Translations under genes and position numbers: made by a program | Shown here: positions 27,954 to 58,292 of the stretch, piece after piece | How positions within the stretch are numbered: the stretch's first letter is position 1 | Layout: every line of letters starts with the position of its first letter | The notes under the pieces: model-generated | Seen by the model: only the letters and a program-made list of their open reading frames with translations | The model's database searches: none | What the model was told of the DNA's origin: nothing | Source: Trujillonella endophytica | GTDB taxonomy: Bacteria; Actinomycetota; Actinomycetes; Mycobacteriales; Geodermatophilaceae | NCBI RefSeq assembly: GCF_900110555.1 | Contig: NZ_FOEE01000001.1 | Location: 310,001-374,000 of the forward strand | Length of the DNA: 64,000 nt | Reading direction: 5' to 3'

Positions 27954-28097
27954 CCGCGCCGCCCTCGCACCCGCCCCGCCCCGGGACGGCGCGCCGTCGC
28001 GCCCCCGGATCCCCCCGAAGACACACCAGCACCGCCTGCGCCCCCTCGACGAAGGGGTCGCTGCCGCGTGCGCACTCTCACTCGGAGTCCTCCCCGC

Positions 28098-28913
28098 ATG
28101 TCCTCGCACCGCACCGCCCGGTTCCGTCGCGCCAGCTCCCTGCTGGGCGCGCGCCGTCCCGGAGTCCTCCTCGCCGCTGCCGCCGCCGGCGGCATCATGG
28201 TCAGCGTGCTGGCCACCGGCGAGACGCCGGCCTCGGCCGACGCAGCCCCCGTTCCCGAGTCCGTGAGCGTCGCCGAGGCGCTCGGCGTCGACGGCGTGGC
28301 CCCCGCCGCGGCCGGCTCGCCGGACCTCTCCGGGCTCGGCGACCTCGCCGCCACCCGGTCCGAGCGCGGCATCGAGGCCTACGGCGCCGCAGCGGTGCAG
28401 CAGGCCGCCGACCAGGCCGAGTGGGACCGGCTGGCCGCCGAGGCCGCCGCCGCCGAGGCCGCCGCGCGCGCCGCCGCGGAGGCGCAGGCCGCCGCGGAGG
28501 CGCAGGCCGCCGCGGAGGCGCAGGCCGCCGCCCAGGCCCAGGCCGCCGCACAGCGGCCCAGCGCCCCCGCCCCCGCCTCCGCCCCCGCGCCGACGTCGTC
28601 ATCCTCGAACTCCGCCCCGGCCTCGCAGGGGTCGTTCAAGGACTACGCGCTCGCCAAGGTGGGCAGCGCCTCCGAGTTCTCCTGCCTCGAGCGGCTCTGG
28701 GGCCGGGAGAGCGGCTGGAATCCCAACGCGCAGAACCCGACGAGCACTGCGTACGGCATTCCGCAGTTCCTGAACTCCACCTGGGCCAGCACCGGGATCG
28801 CCAAGACCAGCGACGGCTACCGCCAGATCGACGCCGGCCTGATCTACATCGAGAACCGCTACGGCAGCCCCTGCGGCGCGTGGGCGCACTCGCAGTCCAC
28901 CGGCTGGTACTGA
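28098..28913 (+). CDS. Secreted lytic transglycosylase-like protein (aggregation-promoting-factor C-terminal domain)
   Basis: A 271-residue exported protein. An Arg-rich start and hydrophobic core (RRPGVLLAAAAAGGIMVSVLA, ~residues 29-49), ending at A-S-A-D-A, form the signal peptide; then a helical Ala/Glu/Gln-rich segment (~residues 100-155) with repeats, a Pro/Ala/Ser linker, and a lysozyme-like domain from ~175 on. The domain has the motif W-G-R-E-S-G-W-N-P with catalytic Glu204, T-S-T-A-Y-G-I-P-Q-F and W-A-H-S-Q-S-T-G-W-Y. It would cleave peptidoglycan outside the cell. The ATG 28098 is preferred over an in-frame GTG at 28068 because GGAG precedes it. Expression is very probably controlled by the c-di-AMP riboswitch 230 bases upstream. 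Confidence 0.88.
   Translation: MSSHRTARFRRASSLLGARRPGVLLAAAAAGGIMVSVLATGETPASADAAPVPESVSVAEALGVDGVAPAAAGSPDLSGLGDLAATRSERGIEAYGAAAVQQAADQAEWDRLAAEAAAAEAAARAAAEAQAAAEAQAAAEAQAAAQAQAAAQRPSAPAPASAPAPTSSSSNSAPASQGSFKDYALAKVGSASEFSCLERLWGRESGWNPNAQNPTSTAYGIPQFLNSTWASTGIAKTSDGYRQIDAGLIYIENRYGSPCGAWAHSQSTGWY
28470..28541 (+). repeat. 18-bp tandem repeats in the transglycosylase linker
   Basis: Three identical 18-bp units (GCCGCCGCGGAGGCGCAG) at 28470-28523 and a fourth diverged copy to 28541 encode A-A-A-E-A-Q repeats of the helical linker. The identical copies suggest recent expansion, and length is likely to vary between strains. Confidence 0.85.
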
Positions 28914-28979: not shown

Positions 28980-29013
28980 AGCCGGCGGTGCCGACTGATT
29001 GGCTGACGGCGTG

Positions 29014-29655
29014 ATGACCGCGGTGGTGCCCGCCGGATTCGTCCGTGCGCACACCGCCGTGCGCCGGCCGTCCTCGGTGCCGGAGGTCCGGCTGCACGTG
29101 GCCGACGACGTCGTCGCCCTGTGGGAGGCGATGGAGGGCTCCGCGGGCGGAGCCGGTGACGCCCCGCCGTTCTGGGCGGCGGCGTGGCCGGGCGGGCAGG
29201 CCCTGGCCCGCTTCGTGCTCGACTCCCCGGAGGTCGTCGCGGGGCGGTCGGTCCTCGACCTCGGTGCCGGCAGCGGCCTGGTGGCGATCGCCGCCGCACG
29301 GGCCGGCGCCGCGCGGGTGCTCGCCAGCGACGTCGACCCGTTCAGCCGGACGGCGGTCGCGGTGAACGCCGGCCTCAACGGCGTCGGCGGCGTGAGCGTG
29401 CTGGGCGACGTCCTCGGCCATCCCCTGCCCCCGGTGGACGTCGTCCTGGCCGGCGACGTCTGCTACGACCGCGTCATGACCGAGCGGGTGCTGCCCTTCC
29501 TCGACCGGGCGCGCGATGCCGGCTGCGCGGTCTACATCGGGGATCCCGGCCGGCCCTACCTGCCGCACGAGCGGCTGGTCGAGGCCGCGGTCCACGAGAT
29601 CGCCGAGACCGAGGGGCCGGGTGTGCGCCGGACGACGGTCTGGCGCCTGCCCTGA
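29014..29655 (+). CDS. Class I methyltransferase (PrmA/ETFBKMT-like)
   Basis: A 213-residue methyltransferase. Motif I is L-D-L-G-A-G-S-G-L-V-A-I-A-A-A (~residues 82-96), with the acidic A-S-D-V-D-P-F after it and the V-D-V-V-L-A-G-D-V-C-Y-D motif (~residue 140) in the place of a substrate-binding D/N-P-P-Y-type loop. The F-W-A-A-A-W-P-G-G-Q-A-L element before motif I is characteristic of lysine protein methyltransferases such as ETF-beta KMT. The target is unknown. The start could be ATG 29014 or GTG 29011. Its last 18 codons lie in a 95-bp tandem duplication; the second copy repeats the same coding end and stop after the real stop. Confidence 0.82.
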   Translation: MTAVVPAGFVRAHTAVRRPSSVPEVRLHVADDVVALWEAMEGSAGGAGDAPPFWAAAWPGGQALARFVLDSPEVVAGRSVLDLGAGSGLVAIAAARAGAARVLASDVDPFSRTAVAVNAGLNGVGGVSVLGDVLGHPLPPVDVVLAGDVCYDRVMTERVLPFLDRARDAGCAVYIGDPGRPYLPHERLVEAAVHEIAETEGPGVRRTTVWRLP

Positions 29656-29792
29656 GCCGACTGCCCGCGGCTCGACGCCATGTCGAGATGCTCGACGACG
29701 AGACCGAGGGGCCGGGTGTGCGCCGGACGACGGTCTGGCGCCTGCCCTGAGCCGACTGCCCGCGGCTCGACGCCATGTCGAGATGCTCGACG
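29604..29792 (+). repeat. 95-bp tandem duplication of a gene end plus operator
   Basis: The 94-base stretch 29604-29697 (last codons of the methyltransferase, stop, and a GTCGAG-N3-CTCGAC palindrome) is repeated as 29699-29792 with an offset of 95 bp and no mismatch seen by eye. The second copy leads directly into the ethR promoter. The identity implies a recent event. Effect: two operator copies 95 bp apart, close to nine turns of DNA. Confidence 0.92.
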
Positions 29793-29803
29793 CCGGGTAG
29801 CGT
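29776..29803 (+). promoter_or_regulatory. Promoter of ethR with embedded palindromic operator
   Basis: TGTCGA (29776-29781) and TAGCGT (29798-29803) are spaced by 16 bp and followed by only seven bases before GTG 29811, so the mRNA may be leaderless. A perfect GTCGAG-ATG-CTCGAC palindrome (29777-29791) overlaps the -35 and spacer, an ideal place for autorepression. The upstream copy is at 29682-29696. Confidence 0.62.
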
Positions 29804-29810
29804 CCGCCTC

Positions 29811-30458
29811 GTGAGCGAGGCCCTGACCGATGTTCCCGGGCGCGGTCGGCGTCCCCGCCGTCCCTCGGGCGACGACCGGGAGCGGGCGCTGCTGGCCACC
29901 GCCGAGGCGCTGCTCGAGCAGCGGCCGCTGGACGGCATCTCGGTCGACGACCTGGCGCGGGGCGCCGGGATCTCCCGCTCGACCTTCTACTTCTACTTCG
30001 CCTCCAAGGAGGCGGTCGTCCTCGCCCTGCTCGACCGGGTGGTCGCCGAGGCCCGCGCCGCCCGCACGGCCGCGCTCGCCGGGGCCACCGGGGCGCGGGA
30101 CGCGTGGCGGGCCGCGCTGGTCACCGTGCGCGACACGTTCCGCGAGCACCGGGCGCTGACCGCCGCGGCCACCCAGCTGCTCGCCGCCAGCCCCGAGGTG
30201 CGGTCGCTGTGGTCGGCGGTGATGGAGGACTTCGTGGCCGAGACCGCCGCCGCGATCGACGCCGAGCGCGCCCGGGGCGCCGCCCCGGCCGGGCCGCCGG
30301 CCCGCGACCTCGCCGTGGCCCTCAACTGGATGAACGAGCGCGTCATCCAGGTCTCCGTCTCCGGCGCGGGGCCCGGCCTGGCCGAGGAGGACCTGGTCGA
30401 GGTGCTCCTGGCCATCTGGCTGCGGACCATCTACGGCTCGGACCGGATCGACCGCTGA
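29811..30458 (+). CDS. ethR: EthR-like TetR family repressor
   Basis: A 215-residue TetR regulator that lines up with mycobacterial EthR (216 residues) along its length: R-P-S-G-D-D-R-E-R-A-L-L-A-T-A-E-A-L-L-E-Q-R-P-L (18-40), I-S-V-D-D-L-A-R-G-A-G-I-S-R-S-T-F-Y-F-Y-F-A-S-K-E-A-V (43-69) as the helix-turn-helix, and A-A-A-I-D-A-E-R-A-R-G-A-A-P in the ligand domain. EthR represses the monooxygenase gene ethA by cooperative binding of several dimers. The GTG start fits the family N terminus; the promoter predicts a leaderless mRNA. Unlike in Mycobacterium, where the two are divergent, here ethR and the ethA-like gene are in the same direction, with candidate operators before both. Confidence 0.9.
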   Translation: MSEALTDVPGRGRRPRRPSGDDRERALLATAEALLEQRPLDGISVDDLARGAGISRSTFYFYFASKEAVVLALLDRVVAEARAARTAALAGATGARDAWRAALVTVRDTFREHRALTAAATQLLAASPEVRSLWSAVMEDFVAETAAAIDAERARGAAPAGPPARDLAVALNWMNERVIQVSVSGAGPGLAEEDLVEVLLAIWLRTIYGSDRIDR

Positions 30459-30485
30459 CCCGCGCAACCGATCCGTCGACGCATC

Positions 30486-30510
30486 GTTGAGCTGCTCGAC
30501 ACGGTGTCGA
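30486..30510 (+). promoter_or_regulatory. Overlapping palindromes before the ethA-like gene
   Basis: GTTGAG-CTG-CTCGAC (30486-30500) is the ethR palindrome with one change, and it overlaps TCGACA-CGG-TGTCGA (30496-30510), a perfect second palindrome. Two overlapping dimer sites in 25 bp fit cooperative EthR-type binding. A TTGAGC at 30487-30492 could be a -35 element. Confidence 0.6.
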
Positions 30511-30566
30511 CAGCACCGTCCGCGCGGTGCAGCATGGGAACGGCCACCACGGAGAGCGGGAGCCCG

Positions 30567-32048
30567 ATGACTGCAGAGCACGTCGACGTCCTCATCGTCG
30601 GGGCCGGGCTGTCCGGCATCGGCGCGGCCTGCCACCTGGAGCGGGAGCGGCCGGGCACGACCTACGCCGTCCTCGAGGCGCGCGCGGCGATGGGCGGCAC
30701 CTGGGACTTGTTCCGCTACCCCGGCGTCCGCTCGGACTCGGACATGTTCACCCTGGGCTACGCGTTCCGGCCGTGGACCGATCCGCAGGCCATCGCCGAC
30801 GGCACCTCGATCCGCGACTACATCGAGGAGACGGCCCGCGAGTACGGCGTCGACCGCCGGATCCGCTACCGCTCCCGCGTGCTGTCGGCGCAGTGGTCCT
30901 CGGCCGACGCCCGCTGGACGGTCACCGTCGAGCGCACCGACACCGGCGAGCAGGAGGAGCTGACCTGCTCGTGGCTGTCGGTGTGCTCCGGCTACTACCG
31001 CTACGACGAGGGCTTCACCCCGCGCTTCGAGGGCGCCGAGAGCTTCCGCGGGCAGGTCGTGCACCCGCAGCACTGGCCCGAGGACCTCGACGTCACCGGC
31101 AAGCGCGTGGTCGTGATCGGCAGCGGCGCCACCGCCGTCACCCTGGTCCCGAGCCTCGCCCCGCAGGCCGCGCACGTCACGATGCTGCAGCGGACGCCCA
31201 CCTACGTCGTCGCGCTGCCCGGGCGGGACGCGCTGGCCGAGAAGCTGCGCCGGCGCCTGCCCGAGCGGGTGGTCTACCCGGTGGTCCGCTGGAAGAGCGT
31301 GCTGGTCTCCATGGCGTCCTACCAGCTGTCGCGCCGCCGCCCGGCGCTGATGAAGAAGGTCCTGCGCAAGGCCCAGGAGCGGCAGCTGCCGGCGGGCTTC
31401 GACCTCGACACCCACTTCAGCCCGCCCTACGACCCGTGGGACCAGCGGCTGTGCGTCGTCCCGGACGGCGACCTGTTCCGCGCCCTGCGGTCCGGCTCGG
31501 CCTCGATCGTCACCGACCGCATCGCGCGGTTCGACGAGACCGGGATCCGGCTCGCGTCGGGGGAGCACCTGGCCGCGGACGTGATCGTCACCGCGACCGG
31601 CCTCAACCTGCTGCCGATCGGCGGCATGGCCCTCACCGTGGACGGGAGGCCGGTCGAGCTGTCGGAGACGGTCTCCTACAAGGGGATGATGGTCTCCGGG
31701 GTTCCCAACTTCACGCTCACCATCGGCTACACCAACGCCTCCTGGACGCTGAAGGCCGACCTGGTCGCCCGCCACGTGTGCCGCCTGCTGGAGCACCTGG
31801 AGCGAACCGGCACAGACATCGCGACCCCGCTGGCCCCGGCCGGCCCCGAGCGCGAGCCGTTCCTCGGCCTCAGCTCCGGCTACGTGCAGCGCAGCCTGGA
31901 CCGGCTGCCCAAGCAGGGCGGCCGGGCGCCGTGGAAGCTCCACCAGAACTACATCCTGGACCTGCGGCTGTTCCGCCGCGGACCGGTCGAGGACGAGGGC
32001 ATCCGCTTCTCGAGGCGGCAGCCGGCCCGGCTGCCGGCGGCCGCCTGA
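30567..32048 (+). CDS. ethA: EthA-like FAD-containing Baeyer-Villiger monooxygenase
   Basis: A 493-residue flavoprotein with the FAD loop V-G-A-G-L-S-G (11-17), the Baeyer-Villiger signature F-R-G-Q-V-V-H-P-Q-H-W (160-170), and the NADPH loop I-G-S-G-A-T-A (184-190). G-G-T-W-D-L-F-R-Y-P-G-V-R-S-D-S-D-M (43-60) and the C-terminal half, e.g. K-G-M-M-V-S-G-V-P-N and Y-T-N-A-S-W-T-L-K-A-D-L-V, follow mycobacterial EthA closely. The enzyme inserts oxygen into ketones using NADPH and O2; in mycobacteria it also activates the prodrug ethionamide. ATG 30567 has GGGAG upstream; an in-frame ATG at 30534 is possible. The downstream SDR gene overlaps by one base and could supply or use the ketone. Confidence 0.93.
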   Translation: MTAEHVDVLIVGAGLSGIGAACHLERERPGTTYAVLEARAAMGGTWDLFRYPGVRSDSDMFTLGYAFRPWTDPQAIADGTSIRDYIEETAREYGVDRRIRYRSRVLSAQWSSADARWTVTVERTDTGEQEELTCSWLSVCSGYYRYDEGFTPRFEGAESFRGQVVHPQHWPEDLDVTGKRVVVIGSGATAVTLVPSLAPQAAHVTMLQRTPTYVVALPGRDALAEKLRRRLPERVVYPVVRWKSVLVSMASYQLSRRRPALMKKVLRKAQERQLPAGFDLDTHFSPPYDPWDQRLCVVPDGDLFRALRSGSASIVTDRIARFDETGIRLASGEHLAADVIVTATGLNLLPIGGMALTVDGRPVELSETVSYKGMMVSGVPNFTLTIGYTNASWTLKADLVARHVCRLLEHLERTGTDIATPLAPAGPEREPFLGLSSGYVQRSLDRLPKQGGRAPWKLHQNYILDLRLFRRGPVEDEGIRFSRRQPARLPAAA

Positions 32049-33375: not shown

Positions 33376-33585
33376 ATGGCAGGGCGCTACGAGTACAAGG
33401 TGGTGGAGCTCCGCGAGGGCCTCCTCGGCGGCAAGATGTCGGGTGACAAGCTGGAGAAGGTGCTCAACGAGCACGCCCGCGAGGGGTGGCAGCTCAAGGC
33501 CATCACCGCGGTCGAGGTCAAGGGCCGGATGGGCCCGGGCGGGGTCGAGGGCATCCTCGTCACCCTGGAGCGCGCCACCGCCTGA
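33376..33585 (+). CDS. DUF4177 domain-containing protein
   Basis: A 69-residue protein: [10 protein letters not shown] at the start and [17 protein letters not shown] (~residues 30-46), followed by a beta-hairpin ending I-L-V-T-L-E-R. This is the DUF4177 pattern (strand, helix with G-W-Q/E-L, strands); the fold is small and the function is unknown. A strong GAGCGAGGAGCGAG region precedes ATG 33376. It sits 17 bp before the pentapeptide-repeat gene, probably in one transcript. Confidence 0.85.
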
Positions 33586-33602
33586 CGTCCCCTGGAGGGC
33601 CC

Positions 33603-34400
33603 GTGCCACCCGCGATCCCGGCGGACGACGACCGGGCCCTCCTGCACGCCGATTGCAGCAGGTGCGCCGCGCTGTGCTGCGTCCTGCCGCCGTTCGCCGC
33701 CTCCGCCGACTTCGCCCTGGACAAGCCGGCCGGGCGGCCCTGCCCGAACCTCGCCGCCGACGACCGGTGCGGCATCCACGCGCAGCTGCCCGAGCGGGGC
33801 TTCCGCGGATGCGTCGCCTTCGACTGCTTCGGCGCCGGCCAGCAGGTCGTGCAGGTGACCTACGGCGGCCGGGACCCGCGCGGCGAGCCGGAGGCGCTCG
33901 CCGTCCTCGACGCGATGCGCGGGCTGTCGGAGCTGCTCTGGTACCTCGCCGAGGCGCTGACCCGGCCCGCCGCCGCGCCGCTGGGCGCCGGGCTGACCGC
34001 GCTCCGCGACCGCGTGCGCGGCCTGCGGGACGCCCCGCCCGCCGAGCTCGCCGTCCTCGACGTCGGGCGGCTGCGCCGGGAGGCCGGTGCGCTGCTGCGC
34101 GACGTCGGTGAGCGGGTGCGCAGCGAGCTGCCCGGCCCCCGCCGGGACCACGCCGGTGCCGATCTGGCGGGGGCGCGGCTGCGCCGCGCCGACCTGCGGG
34201 CCGCCTGCCTGCGTGGCGCGCTGCTGATCGGGGCCGATCTCCGGGAGGCCGACCTGCGCGGAGCCGACCTGCTCGGCGCCGACCTCCGGGGGGCGGACCT
34301 GCGCGGCGCGGACCTGCGCGGCGTCCTGTTCCTCACCCGCCCGCAGGTGGCCGCGGCCCGCACCGACGGCGCGACCCGGGTGCCGGAGACCGTCCGGTGA
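33603..34400 (+). CDS. Cys-rich N-terminal domain fused to pentapeptide repeats
   Basis: A 265-residue two-part protein. Residues ~15-85 hold eight Cys in the order [29 protein letters not shown], which looks like a metal-binding site of YkgJ/CxxCxxCC type. A helical middle (~90-180) follows, then from ~185 a run of pentapeptide repeats (A-D-L-x-x, e.g. A-D-L-R-G/A repeated about 13 times) forming a right-handed quadrilateral helix. Pentapeptide repeats can mimic DNA and protect gyrase (Qnr, MfpA), but most have no known role. GTG 33603 is preceded by GGAGGG. The next gene overlaps by 4 bp. Confidence 0.82.
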
Positions 34401-56357: not shown

Positions 56358-58091
56358 GTGATCGATACCGACGAGCTCCGCGCACCGGGAGCCGAGCTAC
56401 GGCGGCTGCTCGACGCCGGCGTAGATCATCTGGGGCAGGCCCGACATGCCGCCCGGGTCGAGGCGATGGCCGTGGCGCGCGAGATGCGGGCGCTGGCGGC
56501 GTTCGCGCGGTGCCGGCCGCAGGGCTCGTTCGATCGGCAGCCCGGGGAGCGGGGGGCGATGTCGGCGGCCACACGTGCGGCGCGGCCGTCGGCGCTGACC
56601 GAGGTGAGCGAGTGGGCGGTGGACGAGGTGGCGCTGGCCCTGCGGGTCACCTCCAGCGCGGCCGGAAGTCGGCTGGCCGAGGCGATCGTGCTGGTCGAGC
56701 GGCTGGCCGCCACGCTCGCGGCTCTGGAAGTGGGGCGGATCAGCTGGGCGCACGCCCGGCACATCATCGCGATCGTCGGCCCGGTGGAGGACGACGAGCT
56801 CCGCGCCCGGATCGAGGCGAGGGTCCTGGGGCTGCTGAAGGACAAGACGCCGCCGCAGCTGGGGGACTGCGCGCGGCGGATCGTGCTCCGCGAGGACGCC
56901 GATGCGGCAGCGCGCAAGCTGGTCACGGCGGTGCGCGGGCGCGGGGTGCGGTTCCACGACCGCCGCGACGGCACGGCCACGGTGGCGCTCGACCTGCCGC
57001 TCCCCGTGGCCGCGGCGATCCACCGCACGCTGGAGGCCCACGCCGAGCAGCTGCGGGTCGACGGCGACGAGCGGACCAAGCAGCAGCGGATGGCCGACGT
57101 CGTCGCCGACCTGCTCCTGCGCGCAGGGGAGAACGGCCTGCCGCCGGTCACGGTCGCGCTCACCCTCGTGGCGACCCTGGAGACCATGCTCGGCGGCAGC
57201 GAGCCCGGGCACATCGAGGGGCACCTGGTCCCGGCGGAAGCGGTCCGCGAGCTGGCGTACACCTTCGGCCTGATGCCGCGCCCCGCACCGGACCTGAGAG
57301 ATCTGCCGCCGGCCGACGAGGTCGGGACAGCCGAACCCCCCGGGACCCCCGGCGCCCTCGGCGCCCTCGGCGCCCCCGGCGCCCCCGGCGCCCCCGGCGC
57401 CCCCGGCACGCCCGGGTCCCGGACCGGGGCGCGGGCGAACTCCGGACCCGCGCAGCCCGACCGGTCGCCGCCCGTGACCCCGGCGCGCGACCGGACGCTG
57501 GCCGAGTGGATGGCGCAGGCCGCGGCACGGCACGAGGCCGCCGTCGGCGCTGCCCTCACCGGTGCTCGCGAGGCGCTGCTCGACGGCGGGTGGACCGACG
57601 GCGATGACCGCGCGCTGCTCGACCTCGGAGCCCTCATGTCCGTGCGGGACGTCGCCGGCACCGGCCTCGCGCACCGTCCGAACATCGCGGTCGTCGACAT
57701 GCTGCGCGGCAGCCTCGTCGCGCTGACCGACGCCACCGGCATCCGCCGCGGACAGGGACTCGACCCGCCGCCCGGGGTCGACGACCACCATCCCGGCGCC
57801 GAACTCGAGCGATTCGTGAAGCTCCGCGACCGGCGCTGTCGCTTCCCCGGCTGCCGCGCCCGGGCCCGCGTCTGCGACCTCGACCACCGCCGCGAGTGGC
57901 CCGACGGGCGAACCGCCCACGACAACCTCTGCTGCTTGTGCGAGCACCACCACCGGCTCAAGCACCAGGCCCCCGGCTGGCGGCTCGCCGACACCGGTGA
58001 TGGCGGCCTCGCGGTCACCGCTCCCTCGGGCGACACCCTGGTCAGTCATCCGCCGCGCTTCGGCACGGACCTCGACGTCCCGCCGTACTAG
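56358..58091 (+). CDS. DUF222 / HNH endonuclease (13E12-repeat family) protein
   Basis: A 577-residue protein of the DUF222-HNH family, multi-copy in actinobacterial genomes. Residues ~20-320 are the helical DUF222 part (e.g. L-T-E-V-S-E-W-A-V-D-E-V-A-L-A-L-R-V-T-S, E-V-G-R-I-S-W-A-H-A-R-H-I). The C-terminal HNH domain is C-R-F-P-G-C-R-A-R-A-R-V-C-D-L-D-H-R-R-E-W-P-D-G ... D-N-L-C-C-L-C-E-H-H-H-R-L-K-H (~492-540) with the metal-binding His and Cys intact. A Gly-Ala-Pro collagen-like linker (residues 332-352), coded by tandem 9-bp repeats, separates them. Nuclease function is assumed from the fold. GTG 56358 is chosen because upstream codons give non-homologous sequence. No mobile-element ends are seen. 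Confidence 0.88.
   Translation: MIDTDELRAPGAELRRLLDAGVDHLGQARHAARVEAMAVAREMRALAAFARCRPQGSFDRQPGERGAMSAATRAARPSALTEVSEWAVDEVALALRVTSSAAGSRLAEAIVLVERLAATLAALEVGRISWAHARHIIAIVGPVEDDELRARIEARVLGLLKDKTPPQLGDCARRIVLREDADAAARKLVTAVRGRGVRFHDRRDGTATVALDLPLPVAAAIHRTLEAHAEQLRVDGDERTKQQRMADVVADLLLRAGENGLPPVTVALTLVATLETMLGGSEPGHIEGHLVPAEAVRELAYTFGLMPRPAPDLRDLPPADEVGTAEPPGTPGALGALGAPGAPGAPGAPGTPGSRTGARANSGPAQPDRSPPVTPARDRTLAEWMAQAAARHEAAVGAALTGAREALLDGGWTDGDDRALLDLGALMSVRDVAGTGLAHRPNIAVVDMLRGSLVALTDATGIRRGQGLDPPPGVDDHHPGAELERFVKLRDRRCRFPGCRARARVCDLDHRREWPDGRTAHDNLCCLCEHHHRLKHQAPGWRLADTGDGGLAVTAPSGDTLVSHPPRFGTDLDVPPY
57351..57413 (+). repeat. 9-bp tandem repeats in the DUF222 gene
   Basis: Seven 9-bp units, GGCGCCCTC twice, then GGCGCCCCC four times and one variant GGCACGCCC, run without gaps in the reading frame and code for Gly-Ala-Leu/Pro triplets. 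Slippage would add or remove whole triplets without breaking the frame. Confidence 0.85.
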
Positions 58092-58205
58092 CCGGAGCCC
58101 GCCCTGGCCGGAGCCCGCCGCACTAGCCGGAGCCGGCCCTGGCCGGAGCCGGCCCTGGCCGGAGCCCGCCCTGGTCGGAGCCCGCCCTCGCCGGAGCCCG
58201 CCCTC
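58091..58205 (+). repeat. 16-bp minisatellite downstream of the DUF222 gene
   Basis: Seven units of about 16 bp (GCCGGAGCCCGCCCTG, with variants GCCGGAGCCGGCCCTG, GTCGGAGCCCGCCCTC and one of 19 bp) stand head to tail from the last base of the DUF222 stop codon to 58205. There is no gene in it. It lies between the DUF222 stop and the ABC transporter promoter. Confidence 0.88.
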
Positions 58206-58292
58206 GCCAGGAGGGGAGACCGACGAGGAGGACGTCGGCGCTGCGGGTCTCGTCCAGAGCGCTCGTGCACCTTCCCGGCCACCCGCAGGCCG

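Follow-up and report, generated by a model that had tools for sequence, protein, structure and literature searches.

A young 95-bp tandem duplication at a methyltransferase/regulator gene boundary copies a probable EthR-type operator site in Trujillonella endophytica

The window analyzed here, a stretch of 64,000 nucleotides of Trujillonella endophytica contig NZ_FOEE01000001.1, contains a class I methyltransferase ORF (PrmA/Methyltransf_16-like, 28999–29655), a gene for an EthR-like TetR-family regulator (29811–30458) and a gene for an FMO/Baeyer-Villiger-type monooxygenase of 493 aa (30567–32048), in this order and all on the + strand. The regulator carries a TetR_N domain (PF00440, 2.3e-13) and an EthR_C domain (PF21313, 3e-40, 137.4 bits against a cutoff of 27). 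Its eight best relatives among solved structures in the PDB are all EthR (4.5e-60 to 3.4e-59), with NemR next at 2.9e-9, and few changes fall across the DNA-binding region in the alignment with EthR. By sequence, the protein is strongly homologous to EthR. The adjacent flavin monooxygenase that is looked for beside EthR regulators is present (PF00743, 3.1e-14); its best PDB matches include Baeyer-Villiger-type enzymes, with the alignment confined to the N-terminal part, and we call it EthA-like by gene context rather than by direct comparison.

Between the first two genes lies a tandem repeat. The original prediction described an exact repeat of 29604–29697 at 29699–29792 that contains the last codons and stop of the methyltransferase gene and the palindrome GTCGAG-ATG-CTCGAC, and both parts of this description were borne out. 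At a shift of 95, 94 of 94 bases are identical, which is also the longest exact run at that shift in the range 29400–29900 (script, starting at 29604), and TRF reports 29604–29792 with period 95, 2.0 copies and 100% matches. When the full 95-bp unit is compared, 29601–29695 (copy 1, + strand) and 29696–29790 (copy 2, + strand) differ by a single mismatch, C29603 versus A29698. The 3′ end of the methyltransferase ORF with its TGA (29653–29655) falls within copy 1, and the palindrome is located at 29682–29696 and again at 29777–29791. In our judgement an exact match of 94 bases is far beyond chance, whatever the base composition. This is the sole adjacent repeat with a period of 46–600 and at least 95% identity in 464,000 of the genome's 4,873,549 bases, a sample made up of the window and 20 stretches of 20 kb on the same contig, in which repeats that span a border would escape. 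The other output of the scan (periods 25–600) consisted of repeats with period 27 (L127) and with periods 30 and 45 (L134).

Repeats of other kinds are also found in the window. A coding repeat with 15/30/45-bp periodicity, pentapeptide-like by eye (ADLRG...), occupies 34179–34323 within the ORF at 33486–34400. There are tandem arrays at 58091–58213 (16 bp, 7.4 copies) and 57337–57415 (9 bp, 8.8 copies). The protein encoded at 28068–28913 has alanine-rich 18-bp repeats (28470–28549) and an aggregation-promoting-factor/SLT-like C-terminal domain, and looks secreted by eye.

The endpoints of the 95-bp repeat point to the way in which it may have arisen. The pentamer CGCCG is present at both outer ends (29601–29605 and 29791–29795), and its counterpart at the junction is CGACG (29696–29700), with one mismatch. 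The probability of endpoint homology of at least 5 by chance is ∼0.013 at this base composition. A duplication by CGCCG-CGCCG microhomology, followed by one base change at the junction, would yield the observed layout. Replication slippage or a template switch between the two pentamers would thus have duplicated 95 bp across the methyltransferase/regulator gene boundary. Short tandem duplications by microhomology or slippage are a kind known from bacterial chromosomes. The one described here shares with them adjacent direct copies, 5-bp endpoint homology and near-perfect identity, and differs from them in nothing of kind, being merely placed over an operator; the duplication is an ordinary kind of mutation.

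Comparison with close relatives, set as a check by the original prediction, was used to place the event in time. A tree built from 24 regulators groups the window's protein with those of four Blastococcus (B. endophyticus CPCC 205247, Blastococcus sp. CPCC 205250, sp. URHD0036 and sp. TF02A-26) in a clade of five rows with support 100/99. These are the nearest sister loci found (n = 4; L046, L047, L051, L053), of which L051 and L053 were taken to be genomes G002 and G001 and counted once; the genus search covered three genomes, this one included. In 4/4 sisters exactly 47 bp separate the methyltransferase stop from the conserved hexamer TAGCGT upstream of the regulator gene. In the window the first stop lies 142 bp (47 + 95) from the hexamer and its copy 47 bp, which assigns the duplication to this lineage. 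All four sister loci carry one copy, the ancestral state, and the claim that the tandem duplication is young stands. Most simply, it arose after the split from the four sisters, and would then be confined to the line that led to this genome. Between the two copies there are 0/94 or 1/95 differences (95% upper bounds of 3.1% and 4.9%), while the unit and the sister sequences are identical at 69–73 of 92 aligned positions. Sequence exchange between the copies could make the apparent age too low.

To describe the DNA that is duplicated, 80 loci were picked by regulator protein and without any DNA motif (the best 80 of 148). Sixty-two of the 80 have two TCRAC-N5-GTYGA palindromes 20 bp apart and two more have a pair at 21 bp; 18 loci are without the 20-bp pair. 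For five of the 62 (L066, L068, L073, L083, L086) the pair lies more than 400 bp from the regulator match. Within 250 bp of the nominal ends of the regulator match there are 136 sites in 39,585 bases, as compared to 16 in 467,979 bases elsewhere. In 30 of the 62 pairs another left half-site follows at 20 bp, and its right half is present in just one. The window shares the motif with the loci of related regulators, at 29671, 29766, 30475 and 30495. A search of the whole genome for TCRAC-N5-GTYGA-N5-TCRAC gave four matches, none of them outside this locus (one in each copy upstream of the regulator gene, and the site upstream of the monooxygenase gene read on both strands); the reversed control gave 0. 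These comparisons indicate that the palindromic DNA is very probably the operator of the EthR-like regulator.

A scoring matrix built from the 124 paired sites was applied to 463,664 positions (464 kb). The top four scores all belong to the window sites: 30495 (24.0), 29671 and 29766 (17.3 each) and 30475 (16.7), followed by unrelated genomic matches at 15.4 and 15.1. The duplicated palindrome scores below the 5th percentile of the training sites (18.3), and with an unrelated match at 15.4 its strength is uncertain and it may be weak.

Each copy of the unit holds one full palindrome and one half-site. In copy 1 the full TCRAC-N5-GTYGA palindrome (29671–29687) is followed by an extra half-site CTCGAC (29691–29696) whose completing half-site is absent (the 17-mer from 29691 scores −14.5). 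In copy 2 the palindrome at 29766–29782 is followed by the half-site CTCGAC at 29786–29791 (the 17-mer from 29786 scores −4.2), which adjoins the −10-like box TAGCGT of the regulator gene (29798–29803, + strand). The sequence GTCGAG-ATG-CTCGAC thus corresponds to the right half of the full palindrome joined to the left half-site of the position 20 bp on. The earlier claim that an operator is doubled holds in so far as the palindromic DNA is very probably of EthR type (62/80 loci), and fails as to the 15-bp palindrome as operator unit, since related loci keep TCRAC-N5-GTYGA and its 20-bp repetition and the bases at the joint vary. In the window and in each of the four Blastococcus sisters, an exact palindrome lies no more than 400 bp upstream of the regulator; the same holds for 0/6 Geodermatophilus loci (L048, L049, L050, L052, L065, L067).

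The place of the next right half-site in copy 2 is occupied by GTAGCG, which overlaps TAGCGT, and the four sisters are alike in this; copy 1 has unrelated bases where GTAGCG would stand. The box lies beyond the duplicated unit and is kept in 4/4 sisters at the same distance from the stop. A duplication of the promoter was considered and rejected, as TAGCGT occurs just once in 29500–30700. With the upstream copy lacking the box, it is the binding site that was doubled and not the promoter. A scan for consensus sigma-70 promoters found none, and conservation suggests that TAGCGT is the −10 of the regulator gene. The GTG start at 29811 lies 7 nt past the box, and the regulator transcript is therefore probably leaderless. 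An alternative start, ATG 29775 within the operator, is in frame and is disfavoured, as GTG 29811 trails the box kept in the four sisters. In two other loci (L017, 1241–1500; L098, 2766–2835) two full palindromes 20 bp apart are followed by a third left half-site that enters a TAAAG box, a layout that suggests that a position for a third dimer extends into the −10 region.

A second operator is located in the gap between the regulator and monooxygenase genes (30475–30511) and consists of palindromes at 30475–30491 and 30495–30511, 20 bp apart. The locus resembles the mycobacterial EthR-ethA system in having a regulator with strong homology to EthR and an EthR_C domain, an adjacent flavin monooxygenase gene and the paired palindromes common to most of the mycobacterial loci fetched. 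The window is set apart by co-directional methyltransferase, regulator and monooxygenase genes with two separate operators, and by the duplication of the operator on the regulator side. Co-directional regulator and monooxygenase genes are observed in a clade of 11 regulators with support 99/99 (the window, L046–L053, L065 and L067), though within this clade the search for the monooxygenase motif gave no match in L052. Outside the clade it gave none in L054, L056, L057, L063 and L064. The two genes are divergent in eight other Geodermatophilaceae loci of the tree (L055, L058–L062, L069, L074), seven of which are other Blastococcus loci (all but L074), unlike the window.

The EthR-like protein would bind the copy-2 site and repress its own gene, and would bind the copy-1 site as an auxiliary site without a promoter. 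As only copy 2 adjoins TAGCGT, a spare repressor site was gained while the local sequence of both neighbours is unchanged. Each flanking gene retains ∼95 bp of its original local sequence, and thus the duplication is probably tolerated as near-neutral. Possible mild effects would be a small gain in autorepression, a weak hindrance of transcription that enters from the methyltransferase gene, and a slight titration of the repressor. Our default reading is that the duplication is most likely near-neutral, with at most a mild effect. Taken as a whole, we consider it likely that a slippage duplication added an auxiliary EthR-type site here, that the event is young and that it is near-neutral.

A duplicated operator that is functional and under selection, with EthR-like oligomers bridging sites 95 bp apart or loading cooperatively to tighten autorepression, is an unlikely alternative to this reading, though the most probable of the rivals. 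The palindrome is intact in both copies. According to the title of Engohang-Ndong et al. 2004, M. tuberculosis EthR forms octamers on its operator in a cooperative manner. The original prediction had put the copies about nine helical turns apart, and the arithmetic agrees (95/10.5 = 9.05, with 10.5 bp to a turn); contact on the same face is thus geometrically possible. Against selection for function, 95 bp amounts to 4.75 steps of the 20-bp spacing, which leaves the copies out of register for one continuous array, and 4/4 nearest sister loci found manage without the second copy. The copies show 0/94 differences apart from the junction, so that too little time has passed for selection to be read from conservation.

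We also searched for comparable duplications at related loci. Direct repeats were scanned at shifts of 20–249 in 40-bp windows with at least 36 matching bases. The scan covered the 80 loci as well as L001–L019, a few of which are short upstream (e.g., L090 and L099), and reached 500 bp beyond the regulator in both directions. Only the window's own locus (L001), L084 (on the downstream side) and L098 were flagged and none of the others, and no comparable duplication upstream of a regulator was flagged in L046–L125 or L002–L019, which also argues against a selected operator copy. In L098, an actinobacterial MAG, a 26-bp tandem repeat of about five copies (∼2845–2980) separates the operator from the conserved part of the regulator gene. 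In L084 direct-repeat signals with shifts of ∼101–103 and ∼170–171 bp lie within ∼500 bp downstream of the regulator.

A more specific form, and one that we regard as quite improbable, is a freshly born auxiliary operator, in which an EthR-type repressor would bridge or oligomerise between identical sites nine turns apart, of which one lacks a promoter. In the lac and gal systems auxiliary operators serve repression loops. The likeness is that a further repressor site precedes the first by about nine turns; the difference is that the second site here is a very recent copy and that looping is only a possibility. Among the literature matches listed, we found nothing on this locus or on the duplication of an EthR-type operator.

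It is very unlikely that the repeat is an assembly artefact and that the real chromosome holds one copy. The sequence comes from one draft genome (4.87 Mb, 34 contigs), which leaves some room for such an error. At odds with this, neither flank has the junction base A29698 at the corresponding position, and a plain stutter of the assembler would not create it; no second repeat of this kind was found in the 464 kb. In addition, short-read assemblers collapse such repeats more often than they expand them.

Least probable of all is that the duplicated element matters at the RNA level, where it would double a hairpin or terminator behind the methyltransferase gene, rather than as an operator. There is some folding signal in favour of this: the sequence past the stop has z = −2.40, and three of the four sister segments also outdo their shuffled versions (z of −2.19, −1.49 and −1.92). 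However, the fourth sister has z = +1.10, the scan found no terminator-like site, and a palindrome in DNA will fold as RNA by its symmetry in any case. By eye, the GAGCCG/CGGCTC stem of the window is not seen at the corresponding place in the four sisters, whereas the TCGAC half-sites are conserved.

The near-neutral duplication of an auxiliary EthR-type site thus remains the reading that we prefer. The comparison of loci also yields a simple description of the operator in the EthR branch, a pair of TCRAC-N5-GTYGA palindromes at 20 bp, which may already figure in the 2004 paper on M. tuberculosis EthR. If bridging between the two sites were true, the first step toward a looped and more sharply autoregulated circuit would be visible in one lineage beside its single-copy sisters. 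The locus offers a clean before/after pair for testing the effect of one extra operator: there is one copy in the sisters found and two in this lineage, and the box on the promoter side is untouched.
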